Shown: piece by piece, positions 25,947 through 48,655 of the stretch
Layout of the letters: every line of letters starts with the position of its first letter
Position numbering within the stretch: position 1 is the first letter of the stretch
Assembly: GCA_038049695.1 (NCBI GenBank)
Contig: CP142453.1
Location: 115,546,001 to 115,610,000, forward strand
Direction of reading: 5' to 3'
Length of the DNA stretch: 64,000 nucleotides
Origin: Cinnamomum chago
Taxonomy: Eukaryota; Streptophyta; Magnoliopsida; Laurales; Lauraceae
The notes under the pieces: model-generated
Database searches by the model: none
Seen by the model: the letters and a program-made list of their open reading frames with translations, nothing else
Told to the model about the DNA's origin: nothing
Program-made: the position numbers and the translations under genes

Positions 25947-28900
25947 TCAAACCACATGAGTATCCTCTAGAGACTTCCATATCGCACAGCACTCCTCTTC
26001 CTCTTCCTTGGGTCTGCTCCTTCCTGACATGAACCCAAAAGATGAATCCGGCGCCTGCATGAGGTCCAGAGTTACATGCATTGAGGGCTCATGGAAGTGG
26101 TTCCAACTAGGCAACAACCGGCACGCCTCAGACCGATCTGGATCAAATTGGTTATGCTGAGAATGGGTGAAGTACCCCTGAGCCCCGGCTGCGCTATTAT
26201 GCACATAGTGCAGGTCCCCATCTGAGAAAAGCTGCTTCGCAAGGACTTTGGCACGATTCTCCGCAATAAGTTCACGAAGTGCAGCACTGGATCGAGAAGA
26301 GAGGTCCGCTGAAGAAATCCAAGAGGTTTTAGATGACAGAAGAGAGAGAGCACATCCCGTCATCGATGATATGGATGGAAATCTGCGATCCATTGTACTA
26401 TTCTCTGCTGGAGTTGAAAACTCAAAACATGGAACTGTCAGCTTTGGTTTAACTCTAATGACTACCAGCCAGGCAAGAATTGATTAACATACACAGAACC
26501 AAGATACATTTAGTGGATAATATCAGATTATGTGATCCAGTAACGTCTAGAAACATATGCTACAAAATAATTGGATGCCAAGGTGAAATATGTGAGGAAT
26601 GATGCAATTACCTTTTTAGAGAAATTATACAAGTACTTCATATATACACAATCATAAAGATAAGGTGATGACATTATACATTAGGCCTGTTTGTTTCATG
26701 TAATTTAAATCCCTTGTGATTCAAAAACTCTGTAATTCTGTAAGAGGTTAAAAATGAAGAACCGAAGGTGAATATAAGAAATGACCATCCGATAAACCTC
26801 CCCTTTAATGGAAACTAAATCATAGGAAGATAAGGAATGAATACCCACAATTCAAATCATACAAAAGTCAAGGGCCTGATCTACTTCTCTACCTTAAATC
26901 CTTCACTCCTTGGATAATCCATCTGTGTAGCTCATTTGACCATGAATCCATATGCATTCAATTCCTATGTATTCTAAGCAAACAATCAGTGCCTAGAGAA
27001 TTAGTCTGATTGTAAAACAGAAATTTAGAATCATAGAGAATTAAATGATGTTCATCTCAGTCGCTGATTTCTGGTTTTATGTTCTAGCAAGTAACTTAAA
27101 GGCTTTTGGTTGTGTCTTCTATGTTCAAGTAATAATAAGTATCATCATCAAGACGCAATGTCTATTCAAGCATCATGTGGTTCAAGCTTTTCAATTTGAC
27201 TAATGAATTTGATTAAAAAATCACACCTTAATCAAGGATTGTGTAGATCATCAACAAGAAGTCATTCTCCATTCAATCAAGTGTTATCACTGAGATCTTA
27301 TCTATTTAGTATTTCCATTGCTCGTATTGACACAAGTCTACTTCTATTCTACATTAAACTGTCAAATGCTTAAATTGCAAAAAAAGGCAGATGAAAACTC
27401 AAATTAATGCATATAGAGATCCAACATGTTACTGCTCATCCTGGCTTCTGTTGACAAATGCAAACCAAAGATTGCCTGGATCCATTCATCATCATATTCA
27501 TACCTGCAATTTGGCTTCTTCACCAAAAAGGGCAGACACATAGTCAAGAGAAAGCAATGGACAATATTTTCAAAGGTAGGCTGCATAGGTTATTGTTGGG
27601 TTTATGTCTAGTATTGCGGGTTTACCGGATTGGTTCATTGGGTTAGCCAATGACCGGGTACAGGTCAAGTTTATTTTGGTCATTGTACCGGGGCTTTCTT
27701 CAGGGCCAAGAAAGCGGAGATTACATGTATGATGTAATTTGTAACCCTAGACTCTGTGAGAGGCGAGAGCTCTCTCTCCCATGGTGTCGGAGCCATCCAA
27801 ATCACGTGGGGCTAAAGGGGAGAGGTTGTGAGAGCAAGATTGAGACCTATGAGGCGAGAGTAGGCTAAGCGTTAGAGGATTTATAATCGTTAATGAGTTG
27901 CCCCGTCAATGTAGGCAAGTTTGCCAAACCACGTAATATCCTTTAGTCTCTCGTGTGGCATTGTTGTTCAATCACAGGTACTAGCGCTTCCGCACACATG
28001 CACACAGCAGTAACATAAATCAAGTAAACCAGAAATTTTTTAAAACAACATTTTTGAACATAGTATATGCAACTGGTACTTGATTGCTGTTACTTTGATC
28101 AGTTTGAATGTCAGATTTGACTGATCACTTATCCTAGTTAACCTTCACAATTGATCATATTCCAGACAATGTGGCATGAGTTAACTTTTGGATTGGAACT
28201 CATGTGTAGAGTGATGGACCATCATGGCCATCCTTTCTCAATATCACCATGAATAAAAATAGAATTCATAAAATCGGTTGCAATTCTGCCATTTTTTTTT
28301 AAAATCTTTCTGACACTGTTTATGTACTTGGATATGATTATTGAAGAGTTTAAAAAAAAAAAAAAAAAAGATCTTCCTGATGGGTTAACAACACAGGATT
28401 ACAATCAAGTTATGATCTGTTAGGAGGGATCATTTGCTATTTGTAAGTTGCTAACTTGCAATGGCCTGATGGGTGGAATGGCAAGATTTTTGGATCCTGT
28501 AGAACTGGATAGTTGATTGCTATCTTTATGGCTAATACCACCAAACACAGACACTAACAGTAACACACAGTTTGTGATCCAGATCAACGGCTTAAAGATT
28601 TAGGGGAGCCAGGGTCTGCTTCCAGTGTGAGGCCCCACCCTTTGTGGGCCCTCTAATTTATATTTTAAATACTAATTATTACTAATTATTGCTAATTACT
28701 AGCTAATTATGTTAATTAGGGGTTAATCAGGGTTATTAGATAGATTTTTCTAAGTTGTAGTTGAGTTAGTAATTTGGTTAGTAGGGTGTTTTGGGTAATT
28801 CTAGGGTTAACTAGTGTAGGGAGGCCCTTACTAGGGTTTTTAGTAAACTAAAGGGGGGTTATTGCAAAAGGCATCCTCTAGAACCTTCCAACCAAAAGAC

Positions 28901-31900
28901 CCTAATGCCCCTAACCCTAACCCTATGCAACCCTAAAGGGCTTTTCAGTCTTTAGCCACCTCCCCCAATCTATAAAACTAGCCCATTTCCCAAGAAACCT
29001 AGCTACTATTCCTCTCATTTTCTCTCTTCTTCCTCTCTCTTTTCTCTACTACCTTCTCTTTCAAGCTAAGGCAAGTGCATCATACTCTTAACTTAGGTTG
29101 TATGTTCTGTGCATTGATTCATTTGATTTCTAGTTCAGTTATTTTCATTATGATAGAACTACCATGGAGCTTAGTTATGATTGGATGGTTGGACATTGAT
29201 GGATGGGGGTTTCACCCTCATTTGGAAGATCAATGGGCCAAAATGATGTTGATTAATGGGCATTGGAGTGATTCTATGTTTTGTGATGATTTGGTGAAGT
29301 TTGGGACTGATTGGAAGTGGTTTGGAGGAAAAACGAGCAAAAATGGAAAAGTACCTGAAACTGTGTTTTTCCCAGTTTTCGTGCACGAGGTCGACCTGGG
29401 AGTCCACCTGCAGTGTACCCGGTCGACCGGCCTGCAGAGCTCGATCGACCGGCCACACTACAACTGGGAGAAGACAGCTCCCAGTTAGTTTTCTACAGAG
29501 ATCTGTCTCAGTTGCAGGCCGGTCGACCGGGCACACTGAAATTTGGGAAAAACAACTCCCAGTTAGCAAAACTTTGCAGAACTGATTTTCAGTATACCAG
29601 ATCGGGCTAGCCTTGCCCAGGTCAACCCAGTACCCACTGTTTTGCAGGAAATTAACTGGAAGTTGGTTTTTCACCTGGAACTCAGGCACCCTATATTCAG
29701 ATCGACCTAGTACCTAGGATTTGCAATAGAAAGTGTCTGAAAGCCGGGACATCACCCTTTCCATGGTTTTTAGTGTATGCGGTCAATCACCCAGGCCAGG
29801 AGGTTGACCGGACCCATTGGGAACCATTGGAAACGAATTAAGTCTTCCAAGAGGCCTGATTCGGTTCTTCCAGTGCACTCGGTCGACCCACCAGGCCAGG
29901 AGGTCAACCGAGCACACTACACATCAGGTCCACCTGGGGGGGGGGGGGGGGGGCACACTGAAATTTGGGAAAAACAGCTCCCAGTTAGCAAAACTTTGCA
30001 GAACTGATTTTCAGTATACCAGATCGGGCTAGCCTTGCCCAGGTCGACCCAGTACCCACTGTTTTGCAGGAAATTAACTGGAAGTTGGTTTTTCACCTGG
30101 AACTCAGGCACCCTATATTCAGATCGACCTAGTACCTAGGATTTGCAATAGAAAGTGTCTGAAAGCCGGGACATCACCCTTTCCATGGTTTTTGGTGTAT
30201 GCGGTCAATCACCCAGCCAGGAGGTTGACCGGATCCATTGGGAACCATTGGAAACGAATTAAGTCTTCCAAGAGGCCTGATTCGGTTCTTCCAGTGCACT
30301 CGGTTGACCCACCAGGCCAGGAGGTCAACCGAGCACACTACACATCAGGTCCACCTGGGGGTCAATCCCCCAGTGTGCCAGGTCGACCCAGCACACTGGG
30401 AAACCCTGATTTTCAGGTTTTCAACATTTAGGAGTGATGATTAGTTGCGGGGCCCATTGACCATCCAAATGGACATTTATCAATGTACTAAGCCCGAGTC
30501 AACGGTGTGACTCAACCTTGACTCGTGGGGACCACTGATTAGGGTTTTGGTCGTTTAATCTAAGATGATTAGAGCCTTAAACGTTGTCAATGATGCCCGT
30601 AACCTCAGGAGCACCAAACACAGTATCCTTTGGCATCTGAGACTTTGTTTAGAGATCTAATTACCGGAGATGGACCTGAATCTGAATGTGGTCCATTACT
30701 TAGGATTGGACTGTTGTATTTCCCTATTGATTCTCATATTGAAGTTCACACTTCACCTTGTTTATTACTATCATTCTTAGATCTTTAGTGTAGCTGTTAA
30801 CTGTTAATTAAATATAAATGGAGGACCTGAACCTAGGATATCTTAGAGGTGACCTGATGTTATGAATAGAAAAACACTGACCCGTGTCTGTAGCTAGGCG
30901 GGCCCTTATTGGGCCTAAGTATGGTTATGTGAACCCTTAGATTGAAGAGGTAGTTTATATTGGGATTATAACTCATGATAATTGAGAATGAGATGTTTAT
31001 CAGTAGAAATGGATATGATGCCTCGTTTGGACTGATTTAGACCAAGCCATGTGATTGATGGGCCTTGGTATGGATCCAACGAGTGGGCTTGGACTTGGAG
31101 TGTAATCCATAGACTGATTTATATATGAACCTCTTAGAGACTTGGTTAGGACCTTGTTCACGCAAGGCAAAACCTAGACAGACACAGACCCTTAGAGTTT
31201 CTTGAGTCGGCATGGACATTCACTCGGTTGATTTAAGCTCAGCCTGTGGACTGATCATCCCCGGTAGGAGCTATTGAGTGTTGAGAAGCTATCATGATGA
31301 GCTATGTTATTAAGACGGACGGTGTGATACCGGGTCCGGTCTTCGAGTGATGAGTGTGATGAGATTGATGAGTGATTTGCGGGATCAGTAATTTCTAGCA
31401 CTGGTGAGATTTCCCCGCCGCAACTGTGTTCAGTATGGGAGGGCCGCAGCATAATATTCCGCGGTACTCCAACTCGTGTGAATGTGCCATTTTGTAGTAG
31501 ATTAGATGTTGTATATCTTATCCTGATTCTTTATGCTTACCTTGCTCAACTGCCTAGTTCATTTACCTTGTTACTTCTTAATTTATATACCTGTCTCTAT
31601 TCATTTGATATATATGTCCTATGTTATTAGTATACTGTGACTTGCCAGATCTTTTAGATCTGACCCATCTTTGGTGCTTAGGCCTGGACCCAGAGATCGC
31701 AGAGGATTCGCTTGCGCTAGTAGAAGCGCCCGTAGCTGGAGAGTTCGCGTGGGGCCCGGCCGATTCAAATGTCGAGCCGGAGGGTGGAGAGCTACTACCA
31801 GGGTTTTGAGAGTTTACTTTATTTTGGGTTTTGAGAGAATTTTGTAAGTGAGCCGGGTAGTTATCAATTATGTAATCAACTTTTGTTTAACAACTGACAC

Positions 31901-34900
31901 TTTTAAACTAGACTACTGTTCTGCTCTTACTTGATATATATATCTATACCAAATTGTTTCCGCTTTACTTGTTATGCTTCCGCAAATTTAATCGTTATTA
32001 TTATGATGTTCAAAAGTTTTAAATTGGACCTCACTGCGGGCCTACGATCTTGGAAGTTCTCGGATTTTCCGAAAAGTAGCGCGCCAACTTTGGGTATTCC
32101 AACGACTTTATCGGTATTCGGAATTGGGGCGTTACATCCAGCCCAGCTTCCAGGTCGGCTCACTTGAGAAGAATGTGCTATATCCCAAAATGTCTTTGCT
32201 CAGCCCAGCTTCCAGATGGGCTCACCTGAGAAGAATGCCACTGTCCCAAAATGGTCTTCATTGTTGCACTCATCAGTTAAATAGGTAATTTATTTGTCCG
32301 CTTTAAGAATTGTTAGATGTGAGGCCTAGGTTAACTTTCTTTTTTTTTGGCTACATTGGAGACTTGAACTCCTCACTCTCACTCACACCTATGTCCCTAC
32401 CAGCTGAGGTATAGCTTGGGGACAGGTTACTTCTAATTAGGAAATCATATTTGTTGAGCCTTTATTTAAGAGGTTTTTTTGGTTTAAATGAGTAGGATGT
32501 TGGTCTATAATTTTTAAGATTATCTTCTCTTGGAAAGATTTCTTGTAGAAGGCCATAGCCATCAAGAGGTTTTGCAAGAACCTGAATCTTGTCTACATCA
32601 TTTGGTATCAAAGCTAGAATTGTTCCCAATCAAAGAGAACAACATTGTCATCACCCCATTCCCTATCGTCTTTCACCAAATCTTCCAGTCTATTCAGTGT
32701 GAAGGATACAAATTCAAAGATAAATTCCATTTATATAGGAATCAAACAATGCAACCCTAATTTCATATCCATTGCTTGACTCCAGCCCTTCCACCAAACA
32801 GGATTGCATGACAAGAATGAGGCTATCCCCAAAAGGCATTTATTGTCGTATTAGTCCAGTTAGAATATGTTATTTACTTTATGATTTTGTCTATGAGACA
32901 AGACACATCATAATTCTTGAGTTTTTTTTCTTAGGCAGCTTTCTTCTTGCAGAAGGCACTCTTGAGGTGTTGGCCTTTCTTTTTGTAAATCAGTTGAGCT
33001 GTTAGCCTTGCAAATGATTTGTGACAATGCATGTGTACATGTCATCAATCTCTTGAAAAAAATTTCACTAGTATTGTCATGGGTCTCAATCTCAGCAATT
33101 TCTCAACTCAAACAGAAATTAGAAAGTTTAAAAAACTTAAATTTTATTAGGATATCAGCATCAGTGGACAGTTCTCATTAAAAAAAAAAAAAACTGATGA
33201 GGAAATGAAAAAGAAACTGAAATTATAAAAGACATTGTTTAGAACATATACTACAAAAAAAGTGTATTAAGATTCTTTGAGATATTTTGGTAAACATAAA
33301 TTAAACCTAGCCAATCTTAGCCTAGCTTAATGGTTCAAAGTTTTGCTTGAAATCGTCAGATCATGCTTTCAAGCTATATGCACTAAGGGTAAAAAAAATC
33401 CTATCTTATCCTAGAATTTTTCTTGGAAAAACATTGTTAGAAGTAAAAATTATTCTGGAGAAATTTGTACTGATTATAGGTTGCATCTAGGAGTGGTGTA
33501 GACCACTAAAGATGGACGAGGAGAGTTGTGTCATTGAGCTACATGCATCCATCAAGTTTAAAAGAGTTACTTCCTTTGTACCCAGTTCTGTAGTCTACCC
33601 AAGCTGGCAGGTGTAAAAGTATTCTTTGCTAGGGACATCTTAGGGTATTCAATCTTTGTGGCAAATACAACCTCAAAAGGGAAGTCACAAAAGAGGATCT
33701 GATAATAAGGTGAAATGTTAGATGCCAAGAAATTAAGGGAGGAATCAAATAAGAAAATAGGAGTAACTGCTTTTAAATAGTTAGTTTGCCGCACCTTTAG
33801 GGAGGAGTTGAGGCTTGCAAGAACAGCTTGGTGATAGGTATATCTACTCCTATAGGGAGCACCAAGGTTTGAGTTGTGCTCAATGCATGCCAGCCAATGA
33901 ATCTCATAGTTCAAATAGACTGGAATTTATCAAACTGAAGAATCTCCTAGTTCAAAGCAAAAAGGAGGCTCAATAAATTGAGCAAGTAAAATTGATCTCT
34001 CCTTTTCTAACAATACCGAGTCGGGTTCTTCTCCTACCAGTATTGAATAGAACATTATAACAAAATCTTCTTCCCATAAAACATACTCAATTTAGATTGG
34101 AAAAATATGAAATCATGTGCTATGGCTCAAATCCGTATTCAATCTCATTTTTTATTGGAGCAGTTGACAAGCAAAACCAATTTTTCTATTTTTTTTGTAT
34201 ACGTAATAGTGCAAAAAGAAGGTCCCCCGAGACGTTCAGGAATAATGGTGTTGAGTTTCTCAAGCCTTTAGGGTTAGTCAGTTCTATTTCTTGATAGGAG
34301 CAAGGAAGGGATCTAACTCAAAGCTATTGTCACCTTGACATGGTGGAAGTCATCCGTTCGAGCTTGACTATCCCTAAACCCAATGCAATGCGAGTTCTTC
34401 TATTTGGCTTGCTCCCCCATTGCAATGACATGCATGGATAATTGCCACAAACATCACTATTAAGGTAATATCAAAGGGAAGAATCGTGATACTTCAGTTT
34501 TGGGTTGCCTAATGGGATATATTAGGAAGATATTGTTGGAAATAAAAATATTAAAAAAAAAACAATTGTTAATAGTATCAGAAATAGAGATAATTATCTC
34601 AAATCGCAAGTTGAATTTGCCATTGCCTTAGAAGATTAAAGGAATTGATCAAGGAAAATTTTAATTCTCGTATTTAATCTCACCATACAATCAATTCTAA
34701 TTATAAGGCTGCATGTCCACTAAAATGGCATGGGTTGTGAAAACTCACATCTTCCAAAATGTAAATCTTCTTTCAACTCAAATAGAGGTTTTACATCCTT
34801 AGCGTCTCAATAGAATTTCCTTATGGCATTAGGCCTCTTATTTAGTTGCTTTTCAATTCTGAATTCAAGCTCAATTACAGTTAAGTTCTAAGGCGCATTT

Positions 34901-37900
34901 TCTTTAAGATTTCCTTTGGCCTTTTGTTTACTAAAAAATCGACAGTAGGATGCATTATCACAATACAAAACATTTTAAGAATGAATTTAATCCACCTTGA
35001 TAATATCTCAATAAGATTTGATCCTATCATGACAATTACTAAATATCGACTATATTTGTGGCATAGGGATGTGGATACCATGAAATAGGGATGGCAAAAG
35101 GTACATTTTGGTAGGGGTTAAGCCTAAACCCAATCCTGCCCTTGACTCGAACCCGGCTTCACTTTGTAACTGACCCAACTGACAAGAGGTTTATGAGATG
35201 CAATCCCAAACTCGAGTGAGTGAATGGTACACATCAAGGACTCAGACCGGGTTTGATGCTTGAAAGTCTTAATTTTAAACTATTAATAAAATAATTCTAT
35301 TACATATTTTCTCTTGAAAGCCAATCTATATAAACTTCTGTCACAACCCAAACATGATTAGCTGACCCCATCATAGTATGAACAAGGCTTTTACGCTAAT
35401 GATTCCCTTGAATATAGGAGTTTCTGAACCCAGTTGAATGTTTTAATTTTAAATAGTTAACAAAATAGTTATATTAAGCCAATCCATATAAACTTTTGTC
35501 ACAACCCAAACATGATCAGCTGACCCCAACATAGTAGGAACAAGGCTTTGATGATGATGATTTTCTCTTGAATATAGGAGTGTTTTAACCCACAGCACTT
35601 CAATTCAATTTTTGTGATGTTTGCTACCCACCGAATATGTAAAGTGGACAACACCAGTTGCCCAAAACCCAAACCAACCTTGACCTTGACTTGGGTTGAG
35701 AATTTATAAATCCATACCCACCCAAATCTAAGAAAAGCACAAGCAAGCTTTCTTAGGTGGTGATTCACCTGTTTTATCTATGGTGCCAAGTAAAATTGAA
35801 ATATTCAATGTAAGCAAAATGTCTACATTGAAATATCAGCGTTTCCTGATTGGTAAGAAGGGTCAAAGCAAAAAGGAAAAAAACTTAAAGCTGACCCTTA
35901 GGATGGGATATGACTAAGATGACAATCGTAATTATGAAAAATTGTTCATCTCCAATACATTATTAAAGAACCTACACAAATGAAACATTTTGTGATGTCC
36001 AAACGAGTTTGTGAGCTCCATAAAAGCAAATGATCTGAAGATAGAGAAACCCGATCAAATAGGATTTTCACTCATAAGTTGTGGGCCTTTCTTCAAGAAT
36101 AATAGATATTTTGGATAGCTTCCTAATGCCTATAGAATTTCCCTTAATCCGGACCTATTTGTTTGCAATATAATACATAGGGATTTAAGCTCACAGTCAA
36201 ATGAGCTCTACACCAAAGGATGGTTAGTGTAAATGATATGAGGGCAGGGGTGAAGGATACTTAATAATGTCGATGAGACCTTGACTAACCTAAGATTTGA
36301 ATTACTAGGATGAAGATTGGGCATTCATTTCCCATCTTCCTTTGATCACCTTTCCATTAAAGGGGAGGTTGTTTGATGGTCATTCTTGTGTATTTCACCT
36401 TGGATCTTCACTTTGAACCACTTACTGGTATGAATCCCATTTATTCAATTCCTACGTATTCTACGCATGTTTGGTGTGTTAGAAAAAATAAAACATATTA
36501 GAATGCAACTAGATCAATTGTTTGGGGGATCCAATCAGAGGACACAAGATAGTCAACCAGGTCAACTCCTTCATATGGGACAAATATTTAAGCCAATGAA
36601 GAACAAAACCTATCTTTAGCTCCAACAAATTAACATGGTTTTGTACAAGATGCCGTTCAAAATCAGCTTCTATAAGTTGATCATTCACACCACTTGATGG
36701 GGCAATCTGCATCAGCTTTAGCCGAATCCCAACAACGCTGACGGAGCCAAAATTGACGACTCTTAAGCCCTTGTCAAACCCCCTACATTGCTATTAAGCA
36801 ATGATGATGATGATGACTACAATTCAACCTAACAGTAAAAAAAAAAAGCTAATAAAGCATGTCAGATCTAGTTGGATCCTTAAAAAACCCACCCAAAGCA
36901 AGTTATTCTAGTCCCTCCTATGTCACATGTGCTCTAAATCCAGTTCCAGAAAGTACTCTCTGTAAATAATTAATTTAGCATGTGCCTGATCTGCTCCTTC
37001 TACCATACAACCATAATTAACTAATAAAATTAACATGCAGCAGCAACAACAACAACAGCAGCACACGTCCTTTATCGTAGTACAGCCCCAGAATGAGAGA
37101 GAGAGAGAGAAGAACCTTGAGATGGGTTTCTCGCAATAAACTCGTTGGCGCTCTTTCTCCTCCTCTCGTTATGACCAGCCAACCTTCTCCTGCAACTCCT
37201 CTTCGAATCATCAAACTCTGACACCACGTGAAACCTAACCCCCACAAACAAAACCCATCAATCAACGAATAACAAAACCACCCCAAAAGAGAAGCATTTG
37301 GTAGCCAAAACAAGAAAACAACAAACTCTAAAAGCCTGTTTGGCATCATCCATCCTTCAGAAATGTTTCATTCTTTTGAGAATGATTGAAGAAAAAAATT
37401 GTTTGTCAGACACTCTTTGCACAGAGAAAATCTAGAGATAAAAGGAGAGAAGCAAATGCCTGCCAAACAAGTTTAAAGTTTTTCTTCATTCACAAAATCA
37501 AACAGAAACTAAACATTCATTCCAAACAGGCGTTACACTGAGCTGACCTGCTGCATTGCTGGCAGAATCGCTGCTCGGCCCCAAGCACGACGACTTTGGG
37601 CGCCTTGGAGTGCGCCTCGCACACCTTGTGACGACGGTGGTAGTCCTTAGCATCCGTGAGCGTCACGTGGCATCCCTCCACCTGACATCTCGGCACGGCC
37701 GAGGAAGAAGAAGAGGAAGAGGAGGAAGTCTGATAGTAGCCCGTACCTCTCCCTCTCTTTCCTCCAAGCGCCTCCCCACCATCCTCAAAGTAGTGCCTCT
37801 TCCCAAGGTTCAGGCACGTCAAATGCACGTTCTCCCCTCCCCCTCCCCCTCCCCCTCCCATCACCTGCTGCCCATTCTCTCCCCCACTATACAACATTCT

Positions 37901-38020
37901 CATATTCCTACCCTCGTCGCAGCCGCTGCTGCTGTTCACAAACGAAGTTGGAAGAAAACCATTCCAATCTGAAGGCCATTGATGGCTACTAAACCCTTTT
38001 CCATAGCCTCCATCTTCCAT
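25947..38020 (-). CDS. SPL: SBP-box transcription factor, miR156-targeted SPL (SPL16/TGA1-like clade)
   Basis: Exons (minus): 38020-37548, 37234-37116, 26407-25947. Phases close and predict 350 residues, in keeping with this clade. The SBP domain spans about residues 111-187. The first zinc site is C112-x4-C117 with the [11 protein letters not shown] segment. The second is CQQC-x3-H-x11-C, split by intron 1 after QQCS as in other SPL genes, and overlaps the basic nuclear-localisation stretch [17 protein letters not shown]. The N-terminal half has [11 protein letters not shown], a Gly run and a Ser run (99-107). Exon 3 encodes ALSLLS (217-222), the peptide specified by the miR156 site, and ends acidic with DLMQAP and KEEEEE. 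It should bind GTAC-core DNA and act in phase change, branching or organ development; the precise role is inferred. I start at MEDGG because the in-frame upstream Met (38131) would add a low-complexity Glu/Arg stretch read from GA repeats in the leader. The donor of intron 2 (AAG/gttctt) is weak, so an extra small exon is possible. Confidence 0.92.
26334..26353 (-). promoter_or_regulatory. miR156/157 target site in SPL exon 3
   Basis: The minus strand reads GTGCTCTCTCTCTTCTGTCA, the canonical target of plant miR156 in SPL messages. Its complement differs from the common miR156 sequence only at miRNA position 14, which is the usual pattern. It encodes ALSLLS in frame, so it lies in the coding region. 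The message should be cleaved in juvenile tissue when miR156 is abundant. Confidence 0.96.
26688..26990. mobile_element. MITE, family with copies near 36.2 and 56.3 kb
   Basis: Ends ggcctgtttgtttcatgtaa and, inverted, tgattgtttgcttagaatac. The core shares with the other two copies, in opposite orientation, strings such as aacctcccctttaatggaaa and gatgaagattgggcattc-like sequence. Ends are approximate and no duplication is fixed. Confidence 0.6.
27594..27996 (+). mobile_element. Probable Copia-type solo LTR
   Basis: The unit begins TGTTGGG and ends cgcttccgcaca. Near the end it has the string gtaggcaagtttgccaaacc, a usual feature of plant Copia LTRs, followed by ccacgtaat and caatcacaggtactagcgc. 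No internal retroelement sequence adjoins it. A matching 5-bp target duplication was not found, so the ends or the solo status could be wrong. Fossil within SPL intron 2. Confidence 0.5.
28626..32136 (+). mobile_element. Solo LTR, Ty3/gypsy (Tekay/Del-like), 3.5 kb, with 5-bp TSD
   Basis: The unit starts TGTGAGGCCCCACC and ends GGGGCGTTACA, the terminal style of Tekay/Del chromovirus LTRs. The exact 5-bp duplication tccag flanks it at 28621-28625 and 32137-32141. No internal domains or second LTR are present, so it is the product of LTR-LTR recombination. It contains a two-copy internal tandem repeat rich in GTCGACC motifs and an 18-G run. It lies antisense to the SPL gene in intron 2. Intact ends and target duplication suggest it is not extremely old, but age cannot be dated from a single LTR. 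Confidence 0.87.
29531..30362 (+). repeat. Two 422-bp tandem units inside the solo LTR
   Basis: Units 29531-29952 and 29953-about 30362 begin gcacactgaaatttggg and are nearly identical. They share aactgattttcagtatacc, gaagttggtttttcacctgg and ccaggccaggaggt. The first unit ends in an 18-G run (29936-29953); the second has only a short G run at the same place. GTCGACC/GGTCGAC strings recur through the surrounding LTR. Confidence 0.92.
32340..32425 (-). mobile_element. tRNA-like SINE remnant
   Basis: On the minus strand, gtccccaagctatacctcag with ctggtaggg gives an A-box-like segment. The string gaggagttcaagtctcc resembles a B box, and a T/A-rich end follows near 32340. The element body is short and no target duplication was found. 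Confidence 0.4.
33990..34442 (+). other. Nuclear insertion of plastid DNA (rps12-trnV-rrn16 spacer region)
   Basis: The stretch matches, from memory, the chloroplast inverted-repeat region before rrn16. Cues are gtatacgtaatagtgcaaaa with agaaggtccc, then ggttagtcagttctatttct, then a trnV-GAC-like sequence, then aaacccaatg and cttgctccccc. Many substitutions and small indels show an old insertion. The left boundary is uncertain, perhaps nearer 34080. It lies in SPL intron 2. Confidence 0.8.
34307..34376 (+). pseudogene. trnV-GAC relic of plastid origin
   Basis: About 70 nt from agggatctaactca to actatcccta match plastid tRNA-Val(GAC). The anticodon region ccttGACatgg, the ttcga of the T arm and the acceptor stem are recognisable. 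The D-arm is altered and shortened by about 2 nt compared with the normal 72-nt gene. Not expected to function in the nucleus. Confidence 0.8.
35318..35590 (+). repeat. Direct duplication, 158-bp period
   Basis: A segment starting aagccaatc at 35318 repeats at 35476. Both share tcacaacccaaacatgat, agctgacccca and cttgaatataggagt. The second copy is partial. Confidence 0.85.
36157..36480. mobile_element. MITE, same family as 26688-26990
   Basis: It starts near ggacctatttgtttgcaat and ends near attctacgcatgtttgg. Its core attaaaggggaggttgtttg and gatggtcattctt is the reverse of the copy at 26.7 kb. It is inside SPL intron 2. Confidence 0.6.
37333..37531. mobile_element. MITE filling most of SPL intron 1
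   Basis: The unit begins GCCTGTTTGG and ends CCAAACAGGC, a perfect 10-bp inverted terminus. It occupies about 199 of the 313 bp of intron 1 (37235-37547). The donor of intron 1 is only about 16 bp from its right end. No clear target duplication. Confidence 0.65.
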
Positions 38021-48066: not shown

Positions 48067-48571
48067 TCAACATAAGACGTCCTTGAGCAGCTTGTACCTG
48101 CGGCCAACAGGCCTGGGCGAAGGCGTGCCTCTCACATGGTCGCTGCTCTCCTCTCTACCATTCGAAGAACCATTTCGTTTGATTTTATCCCCTGAGTACT
48201 CGGACCGATTCATGGCTCTCCCACACTTGCCTGCAGATCTTTTTGAAGGGACTACATGCTTCGCGCTTCTCTTCTTGCTCCGGCACCAATCGCAGACAGT
48301 GGTCTCCAACGATTCGTTGTAGTAGTTGGTGCAATACCTGGGAATTCAGAATAACGGGATTGAGATATGATACTAACATAAACGCAATTATGGTATGATG
48401 TTGATGATGATGATGATGAGAATGATAGTTGGAGAGGGAGGGAGACGAAGCATACGAGTGCTGGTAGCGAGAGCGGCATTTGGCGCAATGAAAGAGCTTT
48501 TCAGGGAAGCCGACGTCGCCGCACATGCAACAGACGGAAGGGTGATCGACCATGGCCGGTGCTTGAGGCAT
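48067..48571 (-). CDS. Small PHD-type zinc-finger protein
   Basis: Exons (minus): 48571-48456 and 48337-48067, with a 118-bp GT-AG intron; phase 2, joined inside Ser39. The product is 128 residues. An N-terminal PHD-like finger has C14-x2-C17, C29-x2-C32, H38-x2-C41 and C54-x2-C57, a complete C4HC3 set; the Trp two residues after C54 is typical. The rest is basic and Ser-rich and ends with a conserved-looking GRRYKLLKDVLC tail, which I recognise from a small uncharacterised plant PHD-finger family. PHD fingers often read histone H3 tails; binding here is unproven, and a nuclear location is inferred from the basic tail (KKRSAKHVVPSKRSAGK). A second Met at residue 7 could also start. The intron contains a CAT/ATG microsatellite. 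Confidence 0.9.
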
Positions 48572-48655
48572 GAGAGAGTCTGAAGAGGTTAAATGGAAGG
48601 AAGGAAGAAAGGAAGCAAATGAGAAGGTCAGGACGGTCGGTCAAGGGGATATAAA

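Follow-up and report, generated by a model that had tools for sequence, protein, structure and literature searches.

The locus considered here raises the question of whether an SBP domain and a miR156-target exon, lying 10.7 kb apart on the minus strand of Cinnamomum chago DNA, belong to one SPL gene and, if so, whether the length of the intron between them changes how that gene is controlled. Within the window, which is the whole 64,000-nucleotide stretch of DNA that was analysed, the sequence very probably holds a single miR156-regulated SPL transcription-factor gene, which is probably working and the second intron of which has grown to 10.7 kb partly via transposable-element insertions. The gene, a member of a plant family that acts in growth-phase control, is spread over 12 kb of the minus strand, and this is partly due to mobile DNA in one intron.

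The coding part of exon 1 (37548..38020, minus strand, 473 nt) begins with the start codon and extends as far as the Arg codon in the QQCSR motif of the SBP domain. Intron 1 (37235..37547, minus strand, 313 nt, GT..AG) is located within the SBP domain and splits this Arg codon, the third base of which is supplied by exon 2 (37116..37234, minus strand, 119 nt); exon 2 encodes the remainder of the domain and ends in phase 1. The first-pass annotation had placed SBP exons at 37.1–38.0 kb and a last exon with a miR156 site and ALSLLS at 26 kb, and these coordinates proved right: the SBP domain (PF03110) was recognised by Pfam at residues 112–185 with an E-value of 5.6e-33 and 113.5 bits against a curated cut-off of 27, and the protein of this gene matches seven distinct SBP sequences of solved structure. 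The split Arg codon is residue 47 when counted from the first Cys of the SBP domain, while PMC4035897 gives a conserved-codon intron in Populus and Arabidopsis at residue 48 of a domain of ~78 residues; the domain start may have been counted differently. An intron inside the SBP domain at a conserved codon, as expected of an SPL/SBP transcription factor, is present in this gene.

The coding part of the last exon, up to the stop codon, occupies 25947..26407 (minus strand) and carries the miR156 target site at 26334..26353 (minus strand), the sequence of which is GTGCTCTCTCTCTTCTGTCA. This predicted site encodes ALSLLS and shows one mismatch to miR156a. The same 20-mer is also present exactly in eight paralogues, and nowhere else in the window does a stretch score 6 or better. 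An ALSLLS-encoding site within the last coding exon is what distinguishes the last-exon type of SPL gene, whose Arabidopsis counterparts are AtSPL2/10/11, 6, 13 and 9/15, and the gene agrees with this type. miR156 would cleave the mRNA opposite 26343/26344.

When position 37116 is joined to 26407, a single open frame of three exons and 350 codons plus a stop is obtained, and this bears out the earlier proposal of a 10.7 kb intron between the SBP domain and the miR156 exon. With the acceptor at 26407, intron 2 (26408..37115, minus strand) measures 10,708 nt and has the ends GTTCTTCT..AACTCCAG. It would sit just past the SBP domain, at a phase-1 position common to the paralogues. The junction had also been described as closing exactly in phase 1; it does join in frame, but 26407 is just one of five phase-compatible starts. 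Between 26484 and the miR156 site, five AGs keep the phase and give exon starts at 26461, 26452, 26434, 26407 and 26404, and the four choices that were translated (26461, 26434, 26407 and 26404) are all open. Start 26407, the one chosen in the first-pass annotation, has the highest upstream pyrimidine share among the five (0.65) and is one candidate acceptor of five. As well, 26407 and the next AG form a CAGCAG tandem acceptor (26403–26410), the two products of which would differ by one residue. The phase itself finds more general agreement, in that all six paralogues (L009, L011, L015, L019, L025 and L027) in which a coding miR156 exon comes after a recognised SBP exon 2 have a phase-1 intron between the two, as read by eye from the junctions in the genome sequence. 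This count leaves aside L031, where the site is past the stop codon, and also L021 and L029/L030, in which no exon 2 fitted the pattern; in L021 and L030 the miR156 exon likewise starts at a phase-1 acceptor.

The long intron had been put forward as the standout feature of the gene, a view which a comparison with the SPL family of the same genome (1.06 Gb, 14 contigs) does not sustain. The search yielded 38 SBP matches, which correspond to 18 genes with both halves of the domain, a first half that is itself partial (C4:45589295) and a second half on its own. The SBP gene at C5:8303584 is ~22 kb away from this last match (C5:8281656–8281742, minus strand), which is perhaps a duplicate fragment. 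Among the 18 genes, the gap between the SBP halves ranges from 78 to 7,632 bp with a median of 2,356 bp, and exceeds 5 kb in four of them (5.8–7.6 kb). A miR156 site is found downstream of the SBP domain in 10 of the 18, at distances of 0.17, 0.47, 0.50, 1.5, 2.0, 2.5, 2.5, 5.8, 7.3 and 10.8 kb. The window gene has the longest of these, followed by genes on C5 (7.3 kb) and C8 (5.8 kb); the distances are measured between SBP domain and site and may include a further exon in some genes, above all those on C5 and C8, so that not all of them are single introns. The genome contains 14 exact miR156 sites, nine of which are 0.47–10.8 kb downstream of a same-strand SBP gene, and the tenth downstream site, with one mismatch, is 0.17 kb from the C10 gene. 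The other five exact copies (G000:C4:36612034–36723861, C4:7519145 and C4:35814260) have no SBP match nearby and possibly belong to MIR156 genes. The distances spread widely, with the window gene at the far end; its length is not special, and long SPL introns are common in this genome; length alone is therefore no sign of special regulation.

Related SPL genes had been said to have short introns, which is correct for Arabidopsis and bryophytes, where SPL introns are short on average according to PMC10796333, but not for this genome. In Populus, SPL introns reach 3.0 kb (PMC4035897), against 10.7 kb for the second intron here. Long introns are described as usual in Chloranthus and magnoliids in PMC8626473, with LTRs as a main cause in Chloranthus, and the window gene shares with that system a long intron that bears an LTR besides other repeats. 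SPL exon and intron counts are given in PMC10488160 and PMC12112263. A literature search for orthologues with the protein string returned no match.

Among the insertions in intron 2, the most clearly delimited is a solo LTR at 28626..32136 (plus strand, 3,511 bp), which has TG..CA ends and the 5-bp target duplication CTGGA (minus-strand reading) at both flanks, as a solo LTR should. A genome search with 3,510 of its 3,511 bases gave 5,467 first-look candidates, 40 of which were scored, and 37 of the best 39 other rows start at the first base of the LTR. Moreover, the LTR end, in plus-strand reading, adjoins a primer-binding motif at 10 other places in the genome with at most three mismatches (two exact; reversed control 0), and the LTR therefore most likely reads along the plus strand, antisense to the SPL gene. 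The LTR also contains an internal duplication of ~412 bp (29529–29940 and 29951–30361, 98.5% alike, spacing ~421), with a run of C on the minus strand between the two copies. Once the LTR and one target duplication are subtracted, 7,192 bp of intron 2 are left, so that most of the intron is unexplained by an insertion with proven ends.

A long intron that bears transposable elements might end a substantial share of the transcripts prematurely and yield an SBP protein that lacks the miR156 exon and escapes miR156 control, a reading that we consider unlikely. If intron 2 were kept, the frame would read through the donor for 14 further residues to a TAA (37072..37116, minus strand, coordinates counted by hand) and translation would give a protein of 211 residues without the miR156 site, and the intron itself is free of miR156 sites scoring 6 or better. 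The splice-donor consensus has A at +3 and G at +5, and the donor of intron 2, CAAG/GTTCTT, is weak against this pattern since it has neither; the donor of paralogue L025, CAAG/GTTTCC, is similarly weak, which counts against any particular meaning for the one studied here. There is no sequence evidence for premature polyadenylation: AATAAA occurs in the intron nine times on the sense strand and seven times on the antisense strand, with no clear excess, and the solo LTR seems to be in antisense orientation. The idea may be called reasonable in itself and not new in kind, because comparable cases are on record: OsIBM2-knockdown rice and the Arabidopsis ibm2 mutant are reported to show premature polyadenylation in heterochromatic introns (PMC7145194), and some predicted barley SPL splice variants are without the miR156 site, with one of four variants of HvSPL11 having it (PMC5935748). 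What the rice genes with intronic heterochromatin have in common with the window gene is a long repeat-bearing intron. An alternative poly(A) site has also been reported for a Citrus SPL gene in PMC4443640, and it was set aside as a parallel, for the miR156 site there is in the 3' UTR. It is very unlikely that intron 2 acts as a switch governed by chromatin at the solo LTR, with transcripts that end inside the intron giving a short SBP protein beyond the reach of miR156; if this were true, one gene would supply an age-regulated factor as well as an age-independent one.

The two parts of the gene might also be unconnected, splicing between them having been lost; the exons at 37–38 kb would then be a truncated SPL gene and the last exon at 26 kb an orphan. 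The distance between SBP domain and site, which exceeds that of the nine other SBP genes with a site downstream, would suit this reading, as would the in-frame ATG that precedes the miR156 site in the last exon. Nevertheless, each part is an intact open frame, the two agree in strand and phase, the last exon stays open for 152 codons from 26407 to the stop, and its site is the very 20-mer found in the eight paralogues, which together make such a break highly improbable. In addition, neither a second copy nor another SBP partner of the last exon was found in the 1.06-Gb genome, where its protein matches itself alone (four candidates scored; next E-value 8.2); this, with the intron phase shared by the six paralogues, makes the gene model more than a chance arrangement. 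A separate SBP domain for the last exon was also looked for in the window, where the only SBP matches are the two halves of this gene. The last exon as a separate gene was rejected for these two reasons, and a single gene spliced across intron 2 is the preferred reading.

Insertions had been proposed to have enlarged intron 2, and besides the solo LTR the intron indeed contains MITE-like copies and plastid-like DNA. For the family of MITE-like element B (26690..26990, minus strand) the genome yielded 1,478 first-look candidates; the 40 scored rows other than the element itself are 69–84% identical, and 8 of these 40 span from position 1 or 2 to position 301. A short repeat with fixed ends and many copies, as is expected of a MITE, is what element B represents. 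MITE-like element A (36150..36465, minus strand, edges approximate) is an inverted relative of element B, and self-complementarity is clear in A and weak in B. The two are in opposite orientation near the intron ends, with A ~0.65 kb from the donor and B ~0.28 kb from the acceptor. That they pair in the pre-mRNA, bring donor and acceptor together and so aid the splicing of a long intron is the least probable of the readings considered, for although a 60-nt stretch of A and B is 80% complementary, the size of the family means that their joint presence in a long intron may be a matter of chance. A diverged fragment at 34130..34376 (minus strand) resembles the plastid trnV-GAC/rps12 spacer, with an alignment score of 230, whereas 30 shuffles reached at most 33. 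The match is a strong lead only. When the piece was looked for as an RNA family, the interval 33000–36000 gave one weak match, below the gathering score and elsewhere in the stretch. Of the 7.2 kb of intron that remain beside the LTR, the recognised insertions account for no more than a part.

Elsewhere in the window, no RNA gene was found at the Rfam gathering score and no tRNA was found by ARAGORN. Ten other open reading frames of the window were compared with Pfam and gave one PHD finger and two matches far below the cut-off; the former is an open frame at 48188–48640 (minus strand) with a plant PHD-type zinc finger (PF25054, E-value 2.4e-14) and is probably part of a neighbouring gene.

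Among known systems, the miR156-targeted SPL genes of Populus groups G1 and G2, as presented in PMC4035897, have the same split SBP domain and the ALSLLS site in the last coding exon, and these genes likewise have a phase-1 intron after the SBP domain. The top whole-domain SBP identity of the window gene, 58 of 73 residues, is to the C10 gene, which would point to the SPL3/4/5 type (clade VI), whereas the C8:71.9M gene is equally close on the SBP first half (37 of 47) and provides the best single tblastn stretch. Moreover, the C10 gene has its site past the stop codon of the SBP frame, in contrast to the window gene, where the site is in the coding last exon. An SBP tree of 14 rows did not assign the gene to a clade, 6 of its 11 inner branches being open; the tree lacks six of the 18 SBP genes and represents C8:71.9M and C5:4.81M by the first half only, because their second exon did not fit the exon-2 pattern.

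On the single-gene reading, intron 2 would be spliced out of most transcripts and its length would have little regulatory effect. Nothing seen in its sequence points to unusual control. The supported model is of use in that gene finders tuned to short introns might cut such a gene in two and, as a result, report a false SPL gene without miR156 control.
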